From positions 1 through 26,189 of IMG/VR virus record IMGVR_UViG_3300035703_000380: a stretch of 26,189 bases of DNA; one strand, written 5' to 3'. The position numbers and the translations under genes were made by a program. Source of the stretch: a virus. The notes below the pieces were generated by a model. That model was not told the DNA's origin and did no database searches. It saw only the letters and a list, made by a program, of their open reading frames with translations. Shown here in pieces: positions 19,336 through 25,760 of this stretch. Numbering within the stretch: the first letter of the stretch is position 1; the number at the start of each line of letters is the position of its first letter.

Positions 19336-20480
19336 TGGTTAAATCACTTACACCCCGTAAAAAGAAAACAGTTCGTGCAGTGCGTCGGGCAACTGGCATG
19401 GCAGCAATGCCCACTGGCGATTTTCAGAAAGCAAAGTTCTATGTGCATTACGAAGTGGAGAGCCGAGAGTGGGGCGCCGCAGTAAAGGCCTATGTTAAAA
19501 AGTTTATGAGTAAGCCAGATCAGGCAGCTATCAACAAGGTCTCTGATAGTAAACTTTGTTTTGGTAGCCACTGGGCTACTACTGCACAAATGTTGATTAT
19601 GGATCATCCTGTGCCTGAAGTTTACGCAAAGGGATTTCAAAAATTTCTAGCAGGCTTGGTGGCTGAAGGTAAACTTGTTGTTTCCTCGCAAAAAGAAGAA
19701 ACAAAAAAAGTAGCATACGTGCCTACTATCCAAGAACGGCTGCAAGAAGCTACTGAAGAAAAGCTGGAAGAACTCGAGCAGTGGATTGACGACTTTATTC
19801 GTGATCCCAAATCCAATCCTCTCAAAGACAAACAGCCCTTGGCATTTTTCAAGGGTAAAGAAATTAACTTGGGCCATGCTCGATTTATTCAAAAGTGGTA
19901 TGAAGGCCCTGTTGCTGAACTGGAAGAACTGATGACTCTTCCAGTCGCTGCCAAGCAAACCGAAATGCAAAAGCAATTGGCGGAAGGCTACAGTACCTAT
20001 ACCAAAGCACAGCAAAAAGAACTGTATGATTTCTACAAGCGTTTGTTTCAAGCACTGGATATTCTCCGGGCAGAGAAAAAGCAAGTGCGACCTGTTCGCA
20101 AAGTCAAAGCAAAGAGTGCAGCCGAACTGGTGAAAAATCTTAAATTCAAGAGCAGTGATGCCGCACTTGGTATTGCAAGCCTTAACCCTGCAGACTTGAT
20201 TGGTGCTACAGTAGCAGTGGTGTTCAACACTAAGAATCGAAAGCTAGGCGTATACCATGCAGAACCTAACTGCACTTTGCAGGTCAAAGGTACCACTCTG
20301 CAATTTTTCGATGAAGCCAAAAGTGTACAAAAAACTATTCGCAAGCCCGAAGAGATTTTGCCACAGTGGAAAAAAGTAACCAAGCACAAAGTGGATACTC
20401 AGTTTGGATTTGTGAAAACCACTGAAACCAAAATGAACGGCAGGTTCAATGAAGATACGGTTCTTTTGAAAGTGTTCTAA
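19335..20480 (+). CDS. Unrecognised 381-residue basic protein
   Basis: The start is the ATG at 19335, overlapping the previous stop; a TTG two codons earlier is an unlikely alternative. The N-terminus is very basic (VKSLTPRKKKTVRAVRRATG), suggesting nucleic-acid contact. A Glu/Leu-rich, probably coiled-coil stretch (IQERLQEATEEKLEELEQWI, near residue 130-150) is followed by a second helical part (EMQKQLAEGYSTYTKAQQKE), another basic linker (EKKQVRPVRKVKAKS) and a beta-rich end (GATVAVVFNTKNRKLGVYHA; LQVKGTTLQFFDEAKS; IRKPEEILPQW). I recall proteins with the last block in other marine T4-like phages, all without known function. It is the last gene of the early cluster; a late box overlaps its stop. 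Confidence 0.75.
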   Translation: MVKSLTPRKKKTVRAVRRATGMAAMPTGDFQKAKFYVHYEVESREWGAAVKAYVKKFMSKPDQAAINKVSDSKLCFGSHWATTAQMLIMDHPVPEVYAKGFQKFLAGLVAEGKLVVSSQKEETKKVAYVPTIQERLQEATEEKLEELEQWIDDFIRDPKSNPLKDKQPLAFFKGKEINLGHARFIQKWYEGPVAELEELMTLPVAAKQTEMQKQLAEGYSTYTKAQQKELYDFYKRLFQALDILRAEKKQVRPVRKVKAKSAAELVKNLKFKSSDAALGIASLNPADLIGATVAVVFNTKNRKLGVYHAEPNCTLQVKGTTLQFFDEAKSVQKTIRKPEEILPQWKKVTKHKVDTQFGFVKTTETKMNGRFNEDTVLLKVF

Positions 20481-20487
20481 ATAAATA
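20477..20487 (+). promoter_or_regulatory. Late promoter box CTAAATAAATA, 5 bases before ATG
   Basis: It overlaps the TAA stop (20478-20480) of the 381-residue gene. The second, overlapping box (ATAAATA, 20481-20487) is separated from the ATG at 20493 by only CTTGC, so T4-type initiation would fall on or within a few bases of the start codon. Confidence 0.6.
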
Positions 20488-20492
20488 CTTGC

Positions 20493-21188
20493 ATGAGATT
20501 GCATGAATTATTAGAAGCTAGAATGGAACCTGACCAAAATTTCCTTGCTCAAATTGAGGAAATAGTAGATGACTCGATCGACGAGTATCAAGACTTTCTT
20601 GAAGAAAACAATGACGTCGACGATATTGATGAACTAGAATCAATCCTAAACAGCAATAACGTCGACGAGTTGCCGATAGAATTTATTACTGATCATAACC
20701 CACGTAAAGATCCAGATGAATGGATCAGTGCAGTAGCAGACTGGACCGAAAAAGAAGGCAAGTTTGTTACTGTCTACTTGCATGCCAAGAATCTAGAAGG
20801 CGCATATGGTCCCAAAACATTCAAAAACATTTTGATGCGTATGTTAGGACATGAAACCATACACTGGAACCAATACGACAAGATGGGTGCAAAGGTACTG
20901 AACAATTACAAAAGTGGTTATCAAAAAGGTGTAATTAAAAAAGCTGCTGGCGGAACAGATCGTGATCTGATGCGCAGTTATCTTCGTGATCCACACGAAC
21001 TAATGGCATATGCACATGATCTCGCAGGTGAAATGAAGGAAACAGATAATCCCGAAGATGCACTTCGTAATCCAGAAAAGTACAAGTCTGAACTACCAGT
21101 GTACAATAGATTCAGAGAGATTTTTCCTTCTAACTCCAAGCAATTACGACAGCTTTTGAAATATACTGCTGACTACTTCAAATCATAA
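20493..21188 (+). CDS. Putative zinc metalloprotease-like protein (HExxH)
   Basis: 231 residues. The core is GHETIHWNQ with H120-E121-x-x-H124, the zincin zinc-binding and catalytic motif. Some 45 residues later, DPHELMAYAHD offers E169 as a likely third ligand. The N-terminus MRLHELLEAR followed by a long acidic stretch (residues 20-60, many Asp/Glu) resembles the short start peptides of phage head- or virion-associated proteins; this is only an impression. An HExxH protein in a virion region might trim virion or host proteins, but the substrate is unknown. No Shine-Dalgarno precedes the ATG, and the late box sits 5 bases upstream. The gene ends 8 bases before gp13. Confidence 0.65.
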   Translation: MRLHELLEARMEPDQNFLAQIEEIVDDSIDEYQDFLEENNDVDDIDELESILNSNNVDELPIEFITDHNPRKDPDEWISAVADWTEKEGKFVTVYLHAKNLEGAYGPKTFKNILMRMLGHETIHWNQYDKMGAKVLNNYKSGYQKGVIKKAAGGTDRDLMRSYLRDPHELMAYAHDLAGEMKETDNPEDALRNPEKYKSELPVYNRFREIFPSNSKQLRQLLKYTADYFKS

Positions 21189-21191
21189 ATA
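21184..21191 (+). promoter_or_regulatory. Late promoter box CATAAATA, 5 bases before ATG of gp13
   Basis: CATAAATA shares its TAA with the stop of the HExxH gene (21186-21188) and is separated from the gp13 ATG (21197) by GTAGT. No Shine-Dalgarno is present between the box and the ATG. Confidence 0.6.
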
Positions 21192-21196
21192 GTAGT

Positions 21197-21937
21197 ATGG
21201 CAAAGACACAAGAACTCATCAAAGAAATAGAACTCCGCTTAGGCGGTCAAATGGTCGACGTTGAACTTGACCCCGAACACTACGAACTTGCGATTCGTAA
21301 GTCAGTTGAAAAATTTAGACAACGCAGTGAAAATGCAGTGGAAGAAAGTTTCTTTCCATTGGAACTTCAAGTTGAACAAAGTGAATATACCTTGATCGAC
21401 GAGATAATGGAAGTAAAAGATGTATATCGTCGTGTTAGCGGTACACTAAATGGTAGTAGCGGAGGTGACATTGAACCTTTCGAAACTGCATATCTCAACA
21501 ATTATCTGTTGTACAGCGGTCGTGCCGGCGGTATGGCAACATACGATTTCCTTGCACAAAATAGAGAAACACTAGGCAGACTGTTTGGTGAAAAATATAT
21601 GTTTACTTGGAATCCTGTCACTAAAAAACTTCTGCTGCATCGTCGTGTTAAAGCACAAGACACAGTGTATCTGCATGTGTATAAAAATCGTAGCAATGAA
21701 GAACTGTTGATGGATCCATATGCTGCACCTTGGATCAAAGAACTTGCGCTTGCTTATGCAAAACTAATGCTGGCGGAAGCACGTGGCAAGTTTGGCACAA
21801 TTGCAGGACCACAAGGCGGCACTAGCATGAACGCTGATGCATTGCGCTCAGATGCGCAAGCAGCAATTGACAAGCTAGACGATGAACTCAAAACATACGT
21901 AGATGGTAGTACAGGACTTGGGATTATTATTGGTTGA
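21197..21937 (+). CDS. 13: T4 gp13-like neck protein
   Basis: 246 residues. The start TQELIKEIELRLGGQMVDVE fits T4 gp13 (recalled [20 protein letters not shown]), so the N-terminus at 21197 is firm although no ribosome site is seen. The C-terminus WIKELALAYAKLMLAEARGK, then AALR-type helix and GLGIIIG, fits the gp13 end ([20 protein letters not shown] ... PFGILVG). In T4, gp13 and gp14 form the neck that closes the filled head and accepts the tail. The middle segment (DFLAQNRETLGRLFGEKYMF, then WNPVTKKLLLHRR) is the usual beta part. It is shorter than T4 gp13 (about 309). The stop codon is part of the palindrome at 21935-21946. Confidence 0.8.
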   Translation: MAKTQELIKEIELRLGGQMVDVELDPEHYELAIRKSVEKFRQRSENAVEESFFPLELQVEQSEYTLIDEIMEVKDVYRRVSGTLNGSSGGDIEPFETAYLNNYLLYSGRAGGMATYDFLAQNRETLGRLFGEKYMFTWNPVTKKLLLHRRVKAQDTVYLHVYKNRSNEELLMDPYAAPWIKELALAYAKLMLAEARGKFGTIAGPQGGTSMNADALRSDAQAAIDKLDDELKTYVDGSTGLGIIIG

Positions 21938-21946
21938 CAATTGTCA
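21935..21946. repeat. Perfect 12-base palindrome TGACAATTGTCA
   Basis: It begins with the TGA stop of gp13 and contains most of a TTGACA hexamer (21934-21939). It could be an operator-like site, a small hairpin or part of a weak promoter for the kinase gene. A -10 at the right distance is poor (TAACTT, 21957-21962). Confidence 0.4.
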
Positions 21947-21980
21947 GTTCTTGTTGTAACTTAAAAAAAACAACAAGGAT
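21947..21980 (+). promoter_or_regulatory. Hairpin covering the kinase Shine-Dalgarno
   Basis: Bases 21947-21957 (GTTCTTGTTGT) pair with 21970-21980 (ACAACAAGGAT): eleven consecutive pairs, two of them G-U, around a 12-base A-rich loop. The Shine-Dalgarno AAGGAT (21975-21980) lies wholly within the 3' arm, 6 bases before the ATG at 21987. Folding would hide the ribosome site in read-through RNA from gp13. Confidence 0.5.
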
Positions 21981-21986
21981 ACCCCA

Positions 21987-22493
21987 ATGAAATATCGCCC
22001 CAAGCTACTTGTAATTGGTCATGGCCGTCATGGCAAAGACACGGTGTGTGAATACCTAAACCAACACATGGGATTCGACTTTAAAAGTAGCAGTATGTTT
22101 TGCAACGAACGTTTTATCTTTGATATGTTAAAGGACACGTATGGATATGCTAATGAAGAAGAATGTTATGCTGACCGGCATAATCACCGAGCAGAATGGT
22201 ATGATGCTATCTGCGCTTATAATGTTCCTGATGCAGCACGTTTAGGCAGAGAAATTTTCGCTGCACACGACATTTACTGCGGTCTCAGAAACAAAAAAGA
22301 ATTCCATGCCATGAAAAATACTGGCATATTTGACTACGCTATTTGGGTTGATCGCAGCGATTATCTCCCAGTTGAGTCAAAAGACAGTATGAGTCTAGAA
22401 CAGTGGATGGCTGATTATACAATTGATAATAACGGCACACTGGACGAACTTTACTTTAATATCAATGAACTGATGCACCATTTGCTTAAATAA
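21987..22493 (+). CDS. P-loop nucleotide kinase, dNMP kinase-like
   Basis: 168 residues. KLLVIGHGRHGKDTVCEYLN has the Walker A motif GHGRHGKDT (residues 11-19) right at the N-terminus. The middle is helical and rich in acidic and aromatic residues (NEEECYADRHNHRAEWYDAI), then a VWVDRS-type strand (YAIWVDRSDYLPVE), and the end (YTIDNNGTLDELYFNINELM) matches the 'DNNGTLDEL' close seen in many phage deoxynucleoside monophosphate kinases. It would turn dNMPs into dNDPs for phage DNA synthesis, using ATP. It is the only metabolic enzyme between neck and sheath genes. Substrate specificity cannot be read. The ribosome site AAGGAT is within a hairpin. Confidence 0.75.
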   Translation: MKYRPKLLVIGHGRHGKDTVCEYLNQHMGFDFKSSSMFCNERFIFDMLKDTYGYANEEECYADRHNHRAEWYDAICAYNVPDAARLGREIFAAHDIYCGLRNKKEFHAMKNTGIFDYAIWVDRSDYLPVESKDSMSLEQWMADYTIDNNGTLDELYFNINELMHHLLK

Positions 22494-22535
22494 TTTAAGT
22501 ACGCAGTTAACCTCCATATCAGCCTGAATATATAG

Positions 22536-22577
22536 CTCCTCTGGTAAATAGTATTAGTAAAATACAATCCAGAGGAG
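22536..22577 (+). promoter_or_regulatory. Hairpin with internal late promoter box covering the gp18 Shine-Dalgarno
   Basis: CTCCTCTGG (22536-22544) pairs perfectly with CCAGAGGAG (22569-22577), and an inner GTATT (22551-22555) pairs with AATAC (22561-22565) around AGTAA. The 3' arm contains the Shine-Dalgarno AGAGGAG of gp18 (ATG at 22584). There is no T tract, so this is not a terminator. The late box GTAAATA (22544-22550) lies between outer and inner stems; RNA started there, expected near 22556, would lack the 5' arm. Confidence 0.7.
22544..22550 (+). promoter_or_regulatory. Late promoter box GTAAATA for gp18
   Basis: TAAATA at 22545-22550, 33 bases before the gp18 ATG. The first base differs from the CTAAATA/CATAAATA form of the other boxes, but position and strand fit a strongly expressed late gene. 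Confidence 0.5.
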
Positions 22578-22583
22578 TAAAAC

Positions 22584-25052
22584 ATGGTTACTTTAGTATC
22601 CCCAGGTGTGTCAGTTACAGTAGTAGATGAAAGTGCATACGGTGCCCCAGGCGCTGGAACAATTCCATTACTAGTGATTGCTACACAACAAGACAAAACA
22701 GATCCTACTGGCAGTGAAGCTGACGGTATTGCAAAATATACAAAATCAGCCCGTGCAGGCGAAGTCGTGAGAGTAACTTCACAGCGCGAGTTGACCCAAT
22801 ATTTTGGTAATCCACTTTTCACTACTAGTGGAAGTGCTGTGGTTCAAGGCAGCGAAACAAGCGAATACGGTCTTATGGCCGCATACAGTTATCTAGGTCA
22901 AGGCAGTCAAGCATACATTGTTCGTGCCAACGTTGATTTAGCAGCACTAGCATCTACTACAACCCAGCCAACCGCAGCATGGAGTACCGCATCAACTCTG
23001 TGGCTTGACACTGATGCAAGCACTTACGGTATTCACGAGTATAACAATACTACCGGATTGTGGGACGCAAAAACTCCGCTAATCGAAGTAAACGACAACG
23101 CTACATCAGGTGAAGCAGGTGGAACTTACACCCCATCTACAACTGTAGTTAACGGTGCTTACTTGGTTGTTATACACGGCAATCAGACCGGCAATATGTC
23201 ATTGCAATACTTCAAAGGCATTAGTGCTGCATGGGAAGAACTAAACAGCGATGCAGTTACCAGCCAAAGCGATACTGTTACTTGGGCAAGACATTTTAGT
23301 GTGCCTTCAACACCAGGTAACGGCGATATATGGATCAAAACTACTAGCCCAGGCAATGGTATTAATCTAGTAATTTATGAATACAACACCACTACAGCTA
23401 CTTTTGTTGCTAAAACAGTACAAGGTGTTACTACTGCTCTAACTGCTGGTCTAAGCACTTCTATCGGAGACTTCTACCCACAAGACGGAAGCTCTAACAC
23501 TGCACTGACTAGTTCAACTGCGGTAGCAGGAAACATACTACTTGACTTAGACGTAAACACCGAAGCGTTGATTCAGCTACAGCGTGTCAGCACATTAGGT
23601 GCACCGTCTAACTTAAACAGCTATGTGAAGAAAATTCAAACCAGTACGCCAACTGCAACAGCAGCAACTGGTGCGCTATGGTATGATGATTCACTTGATG
23701 AGTTAGATGTATATGTTGTATCTTCGGGTGCATACAGTGCAGTTACTCCAACGTATAGTACCACTGCGCCAACAAGTCCTTCAAACGGCGATGTTTGGGT
23801 TGATACTACTAATGCGGCAGAGAATCAAGCACTAGAAAGAAGTTATCCAGTAATAAAAGTTTACAACAGTACACTATCTTCTTGGATCACTCATGACAAC
23901 ACAGATCAAACTACCCAGCGTGGTGTACTGTTTGCTAACATCAGTGACACTGCTGGAGATGCATCAACTCTTATTACTGGTGCACCAAATCCAGTGGTTT
24001 ATCCAAATGGTATGATTGCAGTAAACATGGCTCAAAGCAGAAACACTGTTAGAACTTGGAATGGTACTGCTTGGAGAAACGCAGTAGCTAATCATGCTGA
24101 CGGTAGCGGTCGTTTTGGTCGTTATGCACAAAGAGCCTACATTGCAACTGCAATGCAAGCTGTTACTGCGGGCACTGATCTGCGCGACGAGCAATACACA
24201 TTTAGCTTGATCTGTGCTCCTAACTATCCAGAGCTAACAGACGAACTAGTGACACTAAACAGTGACAGAGGCGAAACTGCATTTATCATTATAGATACAC
24301 CAATGCGTAAGAATCCAACCGATGCAGTTCTTTGGGTGCAAAACAGTGACGTGGCAACAGAAAATGGTGAAGATGGTCTTGTTACCAACAACACTTATAG
24401 TGCAGTGTACTACCCTGCAGGACAAACCACAGAACCTCTTAACGGAAATACTGTAGTTGTTCCTCCAAGTCATATGGCGCTTTACACTTATGCATACAAT
24501 GACAACATTAGCTTCCAGTGGTTCCCGCCAGCAGGTCTAACACGTGGTGTTGTACAAAATGCTAGCGGTGTAGGTTATATCACTACTGAAGGTGAATTCA
24601 AAGCAGTTGCGTTGACTCAAGGTCAAAGAGACAGCATGTATCAAAATAAACTTAATCCAATCACTACATTTGTTGGACAAGGTACTATTATTTTCGGTCA
24701 GAAAACTATGCACACTGGTACTACTGCATTAGATCGTGTAAACGTTGCACGTCTAGTATGTTACTTGCGTGAAAGATTTGACAGCATTGCTCGTCCATTC
24801 TTGTTTGAAATCAATGATGCTCAAACAAGAGCAAGAGCAAAACTAGTATTTGAACGATTCTTAGCAGACATTCTAAGCCGCAGAGGCATCTATGACTTTG
24901 CAGTAGTTTGCGACGAATCTAACAATACACCTGCACGTATTGATCGTAACGAACTGTATATTGACGTTGCTATCGAACCTGCAAAGGCTGTGGAATTTAT
25001 CTACATACCAATCAGAATTGTAAACACTGGAACTATCGCAGCTACAGTCTAA
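22584..25052 (+). CDS. 18: Tail sheath protein (gp18-like)
   Basis: 822 residues. The N-terminus VTLVSPGVSVTVVDESAYGA is the classic sheath start (SPGVxxxExD-type), followed by GTIPLLVIATQQDK, the TQYFGNPLF block and EYGLMAAYSYLGQGSQAYIV. The C-terminal domain contains FGQKTMHTGTTALDRVNVAR, LFEINDAQTRARAKLVFERF, RRGIYDFAVVCDESNNTPAR and a terminal beta-strand pair, which in T4-like sheaths links neighbouring subunits into the contractile lattice. T4 gp18 has 659 residues; the extra length lies roughly at nt 22940-23950, an insertion of repeated beta units (TLWLDTDAS, GDIWIKTTSP, GALWYDDSLDE, GDVWVDTTN) probably exposed on the outside. The ribosome site AGAGGAG is strong but lies in a hairpin. 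A terminator follows the gene. Confidence 0.92.
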   Translation: MVTLVSPGVSVTVVDESAYGAPGAGTIPLLVIATQQDKTDPTGSEADGIAKYTKSARAGEVVRVTSQRELTQYFGNPLFTTSGSAVVQGSETSEYGLMAAYSYLGQGSQAYIVRANVDLAALASTTTQPTAAWSTASTLWLDTDASTYGIHEYNNTTGLWDAKTPLIEVNDNATSGEAGGTYTPSTTVVNGAYLVVIHGNQTGNMSLQYFKGISAAWEELNSDAVTSQSDTVTWARHFSVPSTPGNGDIWIKTTSPGNGINLVIYEYNTTTATFVAKTVQGVTTALTAGLSTSIGDFYPQDGSSNTALTSSTAVAGNILLDLDVNTEALIQLQRVSTLGAPSNLNSYVKKIQTSTPTATAATGALWYDDSLDELDVYVVSSGAYSAVTPTYSTTAPTSPSNGDVWVDTTNAAENQALERSYPVIKVYNSTLSSWITHDNTDQTTQRGVLFANISDTAGDASTLITGAPNPVVYPNGMIAVNMAQSRNTVRTWNGTAWRNAVANHADGSGRFGRYAQRAYIATAMQAVTAGTDLRDEQYTFSLICAPNYPELTDELVTLNSDRGETAFIIIDTPMRKNPTDAVLWVQNSDVATENGEDGLVTNNTYSAVYYPAGQTTEPLNGNTVVVPPSHMALYTYAYNDNISFQWFPPAGLTRGVVQNASGVGYITTEGEFKAVALTQGQRDSMYQNKLNPITTFVGQGTIIFGQKTMHTGTTALDRVNVARLVCYLRERFDSIARPFLFEINDAQTRARAKLVFERFLADILSRRGIYDFAVVCDESNNTPARIDRNELYIDVAIEPAKAVEFIYIPIRIVNTGTIAATV

Positions 25053-25071
25053 TACAATTAACATAATACTT

Positions 25072-25101
25072 AATAGGCAGCTCTTTGCTGCCTATTTTTT
25101 T
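25072..25101 (+). terminator. Intrinsic terminator after gp18
   Basis: AATAGGCAGC (25072-25081) pairs perfectly with GCTGCCTATT (25087-25096) around TCTTT, followed by a run of seven T (25095-25101). It is a textbook Rho-independent terminator, just before the gp19 promoter box. Confidence 0.9.
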
Positions 25102-25113
25102 GACTAAAACTTG

Positions 25114-25120
25114 CTAAATA
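25114..25120 (+). promoter_or_regulatory. Late promoter box CTAAATA for gp19
   Basis: It lies 13 bases after the gp18 terminator and 28 bases before the gp19 ATG, with an AAGAGGAG ribosome site between (25135-25142). This gives gp19 its own late transcript. Confidence 0.65.
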
Positions 25121-25148
25121 TGTATAAGCCAGTTAAGAGGAGATTTCG

Positions 25149-25760
25149 ATGGCAGTAATCACAACATTAGGTGTTCCTGATAACACAGGTAATACCACCA
25201 CAATCATGCCAAAACTACAATACAGATTCCGTGTAACGTTCATTGGTGAAGGTTTCACTTCAACCCCCACTCGTAGCGTAATGAGTGCAGGCCGTCCGTC
25301 ACTAACACATGATCCAGTAACAATTGATGCATACAACAGCAGAATTTATCTAGCTGGTAAGCACACTTGGAACGAAGTCACTATTATGTTCAGAGATGAC
25401 GTTGACAGCGCAGTACTTCGCGAACTTAACGGACAACTAAATCGTCAAGTTGACCATGCGAACCAAAGCAGTTCAAGAGCAGGTTCGGCATATAAATTCC
25501 AAACACTAGTAGAAACACTAGACGGTGGAAATCCAAATCCAGGTGTATTGGACAAGTATGAACTTGCTGGTTGCTATATCAGCGGCATCCAGTATGGCGA
25601 TTTAAACTATGCAACCAGTGACCAGATTACATTTAATGTGACTTTGCGTTATGACAACTGTGAAATTTTTGATGCTGCGGGTAATGCTACATTAACTGGA
25701 GTAGCGCAGAACCAGACTCTAAGTAACGCTACAGGCGGCGGCTCGTTACCGTCAGCATAA
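25149..25760 (+). CDS. 19: Tail tube protein (gp19-like)
   Basis: 203 residues, ATG after a strong AAGAGGAG. The features are those of the T4 tail tube family: PKLQYRFRVTFIGEGF near the N-terminus, SAGRPSLTHDPVTIDAYNSR, KHTWNEVTIMFRDDVDSAVL, the VETLDGG block, and YELAGCYISGIQYGDLNYAT followed by ITFNVTLRYDNCE. T4 gp19 has 163 residues; the difference is mostly at the C-terminal tail (Thr/Ala/Gly-rich after residue 180) and the loop near 120. It polymerises into the inner tube through which DNA passes, inside the gp18 sheath. Confidence 0.92.
   Translation: MAVITTLGVPDNTGNTTTIMPKLQYRFRVTFIGEGFTSTPTRSVMSAGRPSLTHDPVTIDAYNSRIYLAGKHTWNEVTIMFRDDVDSAVLRELNGQLNRQVDHANQSSSRAGSAYKFQTLVETLDGGNPNPGVLDKYELAGCYISGIQYGDLNYATSDQITFNVTLRYDNCEIFDAAGNATLTGVAQNQTLSNATGGGSLPSA

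Follow-up and report, generated by a model that had tools for sequence, protein, structure and literature searches.

How might the tail sheath gene, a late virion gene, be kept silent in RNA that enters it from an early-type promoter upstream? The question arises in the window, by which we mean the whole 26,189-nucleotide stretch of viral DNA analysed here, where a kinase gene sits amid late structural genes, with the head-tail adaptor gene on its 5' side and the sheath gene on its 3' side. The features that raise the question are as follows.

21934..21962, + strand: predicted sigma70-like early promoter of the kinase gene, with TTGACA at 21934-21939, a 17-nt spacer and a weak -10 element, TAACTT, at 21957-21962 (from comparison with relatives' leaders)
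21987..22493, + strand: dNMP-kinase-like gene, immediately 5' of the sheath gene (phrog_38514, 6.5e-55; phrog_139, 1.7e-12)
22584..25052, + strand: tail sheath gene, gp18-like (phrog_10581, E 2.6e-200; PF17482)

The top match of the kinase ORF (21987-22493), phrog_38514, has no named function. Since its early-type promoter lies amid late structural genes, the kinase is a plausible source of early RNA running into the sheath gene. A search for plus-strand terminators at 20300-22700, which includes the kinase-sheath junction, found none. The window combines, as far as sequence can tell, an early-type kinase promoter with a junction at which read-through may occur. On the far side of the sheath gene, the gap to the tube gene (25052-25149) holds a strong intrinsic terminator (GGCAGC..GCTGCC followed by TTTTTTT) and then a new late promoter; this layout and its flanks are kept in relatives, and the terminator stem shows compensating changes.

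We propose that the sheath leader acts as a translational insulator embedded in a late promoter, and put the probability of this reading at roughly 0.78. Early RNA from the kinase gene would enter the sheath leader with both arms of a stem, and this read-through RNA would fold the sheath Shine-Dalgarno (SD) sequence into a long helix, leaving the sheath untranslated. Late RNA polymerase would start at TAAATA (at about 22556) and yield RNA without the 5' arm; in such RNA the SD would be much more open, and so sheath would be made only late. The rationale given with the original prediction, that this averts early synthesis of an aggregation-prone sheath protein, is speculative.

The sheath leader in the window

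The elements of the leader are the following.

22535..22544, + strand: 5' arm of the SD-hiding stem, GCTCCTCTGG (fold; 10/10 pairs)
22544..22550, + strand: late box GTAAATA, whose TAAATA (22545-22550) falls in the loop that separates the arms (sequence)
22551..22565, + strand: inner 5-bp stem, 22551-22555 with 22561-22565, SD not included (fold)
22556, + strand: predicted late transcription start, the sixth base after TAAATA (T4 geometry and a TAAATA-N5-ATG peak)
22569..22578, + strand: 3' arm, CCAGAGGAGT, which holds the sheath SD AGGAG at 22573-22577 (fold, opening cost)

The original prediction described a perfect 9-bp stem, and 22536-22544 (CTCCTCTGG) indeed forms nine Watson-Crick pairs with 22569-22577 (CCAGAGGAG). 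A G-U pair between 22535 and 22578 lengthens the stem to 10 pairs. The inner 5-bp stem that had also been named is predicted by the fold, but it leaves the SD uncovered. The 86-nt leader has a minimum free energy of -23.1 kcal/mol (z = -3.07), and 0 of 200 dinucleotide shuffles fold equally well. In the read-through RNA the unpaired probability of the SD is 0.00, whereas shuffling the upstream part gives about 0.30 (0/200 shuffles as low). Folding both RNA forms bears out the anticipated difference between them, in that opening the SD costs 13.7 kcal/mol in the read-through RNA and 2.8 kcal/mol in RNA that starts at 22556. The stem at the sheath leader is confirmed by these calculations and, as in T4-type leaders, the computed fold places the SD inside a helix in RNAs begun upstream. 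The 3' arm is followed by AAAACATG, without a T-run, and the stem is therefore not an intrinsic terminator. Rfam covariance models gave no match up to E = 1 to the window or to four relatives.

The late box had been placed between the arms. TAAATA lies wholly in the loop, but because GTAAATA occupies 22544-22550, its first G is the final base of the 5' arm. In T4 late promoters, +1 is the sixth base after TAAATA. The predicted start at 22556 is thus 3' of the arm, in keeping with the claim that late initiation near this position drops the 5' arm from the RNA. The promoter, with TAAATA directly after the 5' arm, is placed so that the predicted RNA omits the 5' strand of the helix, a second feature of T4-type leaders. 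The spacing agrees with a 342-kb relative (contig G008, L407-L423), in which TAAATA-to-ATG distances show a sharp peak at exactly 5 nt and a second, broad hump at 18-45 nt. The 5-nt peak fits leaderless late genes that start at the A of ATG, as would be expected, and supports the spacing used for 22556. TAAATA-N5-ATG also precedes two late genes of the window (20482-20493 and 21186-21197), the head-tail adaptor among them; late mRNAs with this arrangement are probably leaderless.

The late RNA of the window has an SD unpaired probability of 0.36. Exposure reaches only about one third because the SD pairs weakly with the coding region.

Neighbouring genes and the distribution of the stem

A first round fetched 80 sheath homologues, and a kinase-based search together with more distant sheath proteins brought the set to 159 distinct sheath leaders. 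TAAATA is found 5' of the start codon in all 159. We call an SD hidden when it is paired by sequence that the late RNA would lack.

The idea that sheath genes in general carry the hairpin was rejected: across the first 43 leaders mean SD exposure was 0.44, against 0.34 in shuffles, and only the close kin of the window hid the SD. A pattern emerged only once the leaders were sorted by neighbour. The first split (kinase near, far or none) proved too coarse and was redone with profiles. Leaders scored as "kinase far" turned out to have an antisense HNH-like ORF, and so did most family-B leaders without a kinase (the two leader families are described below), and some marine leaders scored as lacking a kinase actually adjoin a second, gp1-type kinase. 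The profile-based contexts weakened the tidy picture through this second kinase, and the main result stayed.

Context classes and thresholds took shape as the analysis went on, with one revision once the neighbour genes had been inspected. On this basis, 47 of the 67 leaders that directly follow the window-type kinase (kinase A) without a terminator hide the SD. None of the six in which an intrinsic terminator separates kinase A from the sheath gene do so, nor do any of the 16 that have a terminator but no identified kinase; of those with an antisense HNH-like ORF in between, 4/52 do. Where the gp1-type kinase B is adjacent, the SD is hidden in 1/16, although no terminator was found. Comparative sequence thus supports the original reading of the leader as a late promoter combined with an SD-hiding hairpin: the stem follows an early-type kinase upstream with nothing stopping read-through (48/83 hidden over all uninsulated kinase contexts vs 4/74 over insulated ones).

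The size of the effect points the same way. Among kinase-adjacent leaders, the median cost of opening the SD is 6.8 kcal/mol in the read-through RNA and 1.9 kcal/mol in the late RNA. The difference between the two reaches at least 5 kcal/mol in 32/67 of these leaders and in 0/87 in the other classified contexts. Every partner of the SD lies upstream of the first TAAATA base in 45 of the 47 hidden leaders, and late initiation would therefore remove them. Because the relatives are not independent, we also used contrasts on the sheath tree, in which the leader in the exposed context pairs its SD more in 10.6 independent pairs and less in 1.6 on average (sign test, median p 0.02). A binary independent-pairs test at a fixed threshold has the same direction (3.8 vs 0.1 pairs) but is underpowered (median p 0.125).

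Loss of the 5' arm without compensation had been named as one outcome that would tell against the proposal. The sheath proteins of L004 and the window are 76% identical, and in L004 the SD arm is unchanged and the 5' arm is lost. L004 and its kin (L200, L184, L206, L202), all without the arm, have a strong terminator right after the kinase gene (for example AAAAGACACCTTAATGGTGTCTTTTTT, -12.9 kcal/mol). The stem is thus lost where a terminator, as in the L004 group, or an antisense gene intervenes. There are exceptions: 20/67 leaders adjacent to kinase A and 15/16 adjacent to kinase B fall below the threshold with no terminator found, and most of the below-threshold kinase-adjacent leaders belong to a marine clade. 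Examples are L016, L033, L075, L080, L085 and L092, which have an early-type kinase next to the sheath gene (kinase A or the gp1-type B) but neither a terminator nor a strong stem.

The antisense ORF encodes about 110 amino acids (for example L225:648-983, - strand) and in 52 leaders occupies the gap between the sheath gene and the kinase or adaptor gene upstream. Its Pfam HNH matches are weak, below the curated cut-off. It is possibly a homing endonuclease gene that inserted at the junction upstream of the sheath gene.

On the kinase side of the junction, a TTGA-type promoter (TTGACA-N17-TAnnnT) is present in 58/62 distinct kinase leaders, with a spacer of nearly always 17 nt. In the window this promoter overlaps a hairpin that mirrors the one in the sheath leader.

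21947..21980, + strand: kinase mirror hairpin, 21947-21957 with 21970-21980, which hides the SD AAGGA at 21975-21979 (fold)

The predicted early start of the kinase RNA, at about 21969, removes the 5' arm of this hairpin. The kinase SD has an unpaired probability of 0.01 in read-through RNA, 0.33 in the early RNA and 0.46 in shuffles (p 0.025). For about half of the 62 distinct kinase leaders, transcription is predicted to begin at the A of ATG, so that an early kinase mRNA would be leaderless; L036, L045, L101, L128, L177, L187 and L245 are examples among these relatives, with others. The remaining kinase leaders mostly give a short leader, often with an SD. Mean exposure in the SD-bearing ones is 0.29 in read-through RNA and 0.63 in early RNA; shuffles give 0.44 and exchanged upstream parts 0.41, and individually 5/20 leaders reach p <=0.05.

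We regard the kinase half as a lead, weaker than the sheath half. A junction insulated both ways is a possible extension to which we give slightly less than even odds: the sheath gene would be shielded from early RNA by its late-promoter hairpin and the kinase gene from late read-through RNA by an early-promoter hairpin or a leaderless start, with hairpin, terminator and antisense endonuclease gene serving as interchangeable devices at one position in related phages.

Arm sequences and other explanations of the stem

The structure is kept in related phages in two forms, though not universally. Family A is the form of the window, with arms CTCCTCTGG/CCAGAGGAG; 10/10 pairs are kept in L166/L002, L164/L076, L185 and L189 through C-to-U wobble changes. 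Family B, the larger of the two, is unrelated to family A in leader sequence, and its sheath proteins are about 35-48% identical to that of the window in the best segment. Its arms are widely variable around the pattern TTTTCTCC..GATC, then CTAAATA, then GATCC..GGAGAAAA-like; they include a 16-bp stem in L370 and TCTGTCTCTTTTTT../..AAAGGAGAGACAGA in L176.

In a swap test on pairing probability, the own 5' part of a family-B leader hides the SD better than the 5' parts of its relatives (P 0.78 vs 0.63, permutation p 0.0002). The same test shows no effect in the control groups (antisense-HNH leaders, p 0.16; no-kinase leaders, p 0.44) and is not significant in the family of the window (p 0.34). 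A swap measure based on duplex energy was discarded as evidence, since the control groups were also positive (0.0009 and 0.003) and shared ancestry therefore inflates it; only the pairing-probability measure is clean in the controls. Applied to an alignment of family-B sequences, RNAalifold found nothing, since the arms cannot be aligned. The compensatory arm changes expected of related phages are thus present in family B, whose arms co-vary, but not in the family of the window, where the 5' arm shows wobble changes only and the change is not two-sided.

These results bear on the possibility that the complementarity arose by chance, in which case a conserved CTGG before the late box would simply match the common SD form CCAGAGGAG and the stem would be functionless. 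TGG before TAAATA is conserved in the clade of the window with or without the stem, and many marine relatives share the promoter without a strong stem; the lack of two-sided compensation in family A fits as well. Chance would not readily account for 10/10 pairs in four distinct leaders besides the window, for a sequence-unrelated family that rebuilds the arrangement with co-varying arms, or for a stem that tracks the read-through context. We therefore consider this explanation unlikely, with something like one chance in eight.

Adjoining the stem is a block of about 40 bp, TTAACTACTAGGTTAACC..ATAACCCCC..GATATATAG (22494-22535 in the window and the equivalent position in L006-L080). It is gap-free and strongly conserved, lies 9 nt before TAAATA in 135/135 element hits, and always precedes the sheath gene on contigs that extend far enough; within the clade it is single-copy and sheath-specific. 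In some phages its left edge runs into the 3' end of the kinase gene. We know of no requirement for upstream sequence in T4 late promoters. A conserved block at fixed spacing resembles a protein-binding site and, together with arms that flank the promoter, might suggest that the repeat works at the DNA level, for instance as an operator surrounding the late promoter, or plays some other part in the RNA, such as a processing site or attenuator, with the SD pairing as a by-product. Yet the block is independent of the stem and equally present in relatives without an SD stem. The arm sequences vary freely between phages and still keep the pairing with the SD, unlike an operator, and the stem always takes in the SD rather than just flanking the box. 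With the missing T-run speaking against a terminator, we find such a role very improbable. Still less credible is a stem that tunes the level and not the timing of sheath synthesis around an SD that is always partly hidden, a notion which the roughly 36% exposure in the late RNA of the window would fit, because the 5' arm precedes the late box and late RNA would lack it unless its start differs from the T4 geometry and the N5 peak.

Comparison with known systems

Taken together, these observations favour the translational insulator, in which the stem would lower sheath translation in the cell as long as RNA arrives from the kinase gene. Under the proposal, a mechanism that is textbook knowledge for T4 would also serve a major virion gene across a wide group of uncultured phages. 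The relatives offer a natural comparative test of the purpose of the hairpin, as stems are frequent downstream of an early-type gene that could read in and rare where there is another insulator, and sequence alone may predict which late genes need shielding from early RNA. Compact promoter-plus-hairpin parts of this kind could separate adjoining genes by time instead of by a terminator. Our search of the open-access literature (subscription papers being outside its scope) found no sheath-gene case of this leader, and a search of cultured phages found no cultured relative with it.

The T4 genes e, soc, 49 and I-TevI are precedents for an SD hidden in RNA from upstream promoters (PMC3014915, PMC2988022). 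They have in common that late genes lie on long early RNAs and that a late promoter immediately upstream gives RNA without the 5' arm. The mechanism proposed here would be the same, and its sheath-gene instance is, as far as we found, new. The products of the T4 set are lysozyme, a small capsid protein, a nuclease and homing endonucleases; here the leader belongs to the tail sheath gene in uncultured T4-like phages. A further difference is that this leader has two or more forms unrelated in sequence, and that whether it is present depends on whether the early neighbour is already set apart by some other insulator. Experiments have tested the T4 e and I-TevI leaders, whereas the sheath leader is proposed here from sequence and computed folding.

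Aeromonas phage Aeh1 mobE and T4 segB (PMC2988022), also free-standing late genes, are likewise preceded by a late promoter and a hairpin that hides the SD, but they are mobile endonuclease genes and the sheath gene is a virion gene. Outside phages, a long hairpin has likewise been proposed to block read-through translation of Bacillus subtilis sigG from the upstream operon, and this hairpin cannot form in RNA from sigG's own promoter (PMC5942855). The sigG case differs in that it is cellular and belongs to sporulation sigma factors, and its promoter is not of the T4 late type.
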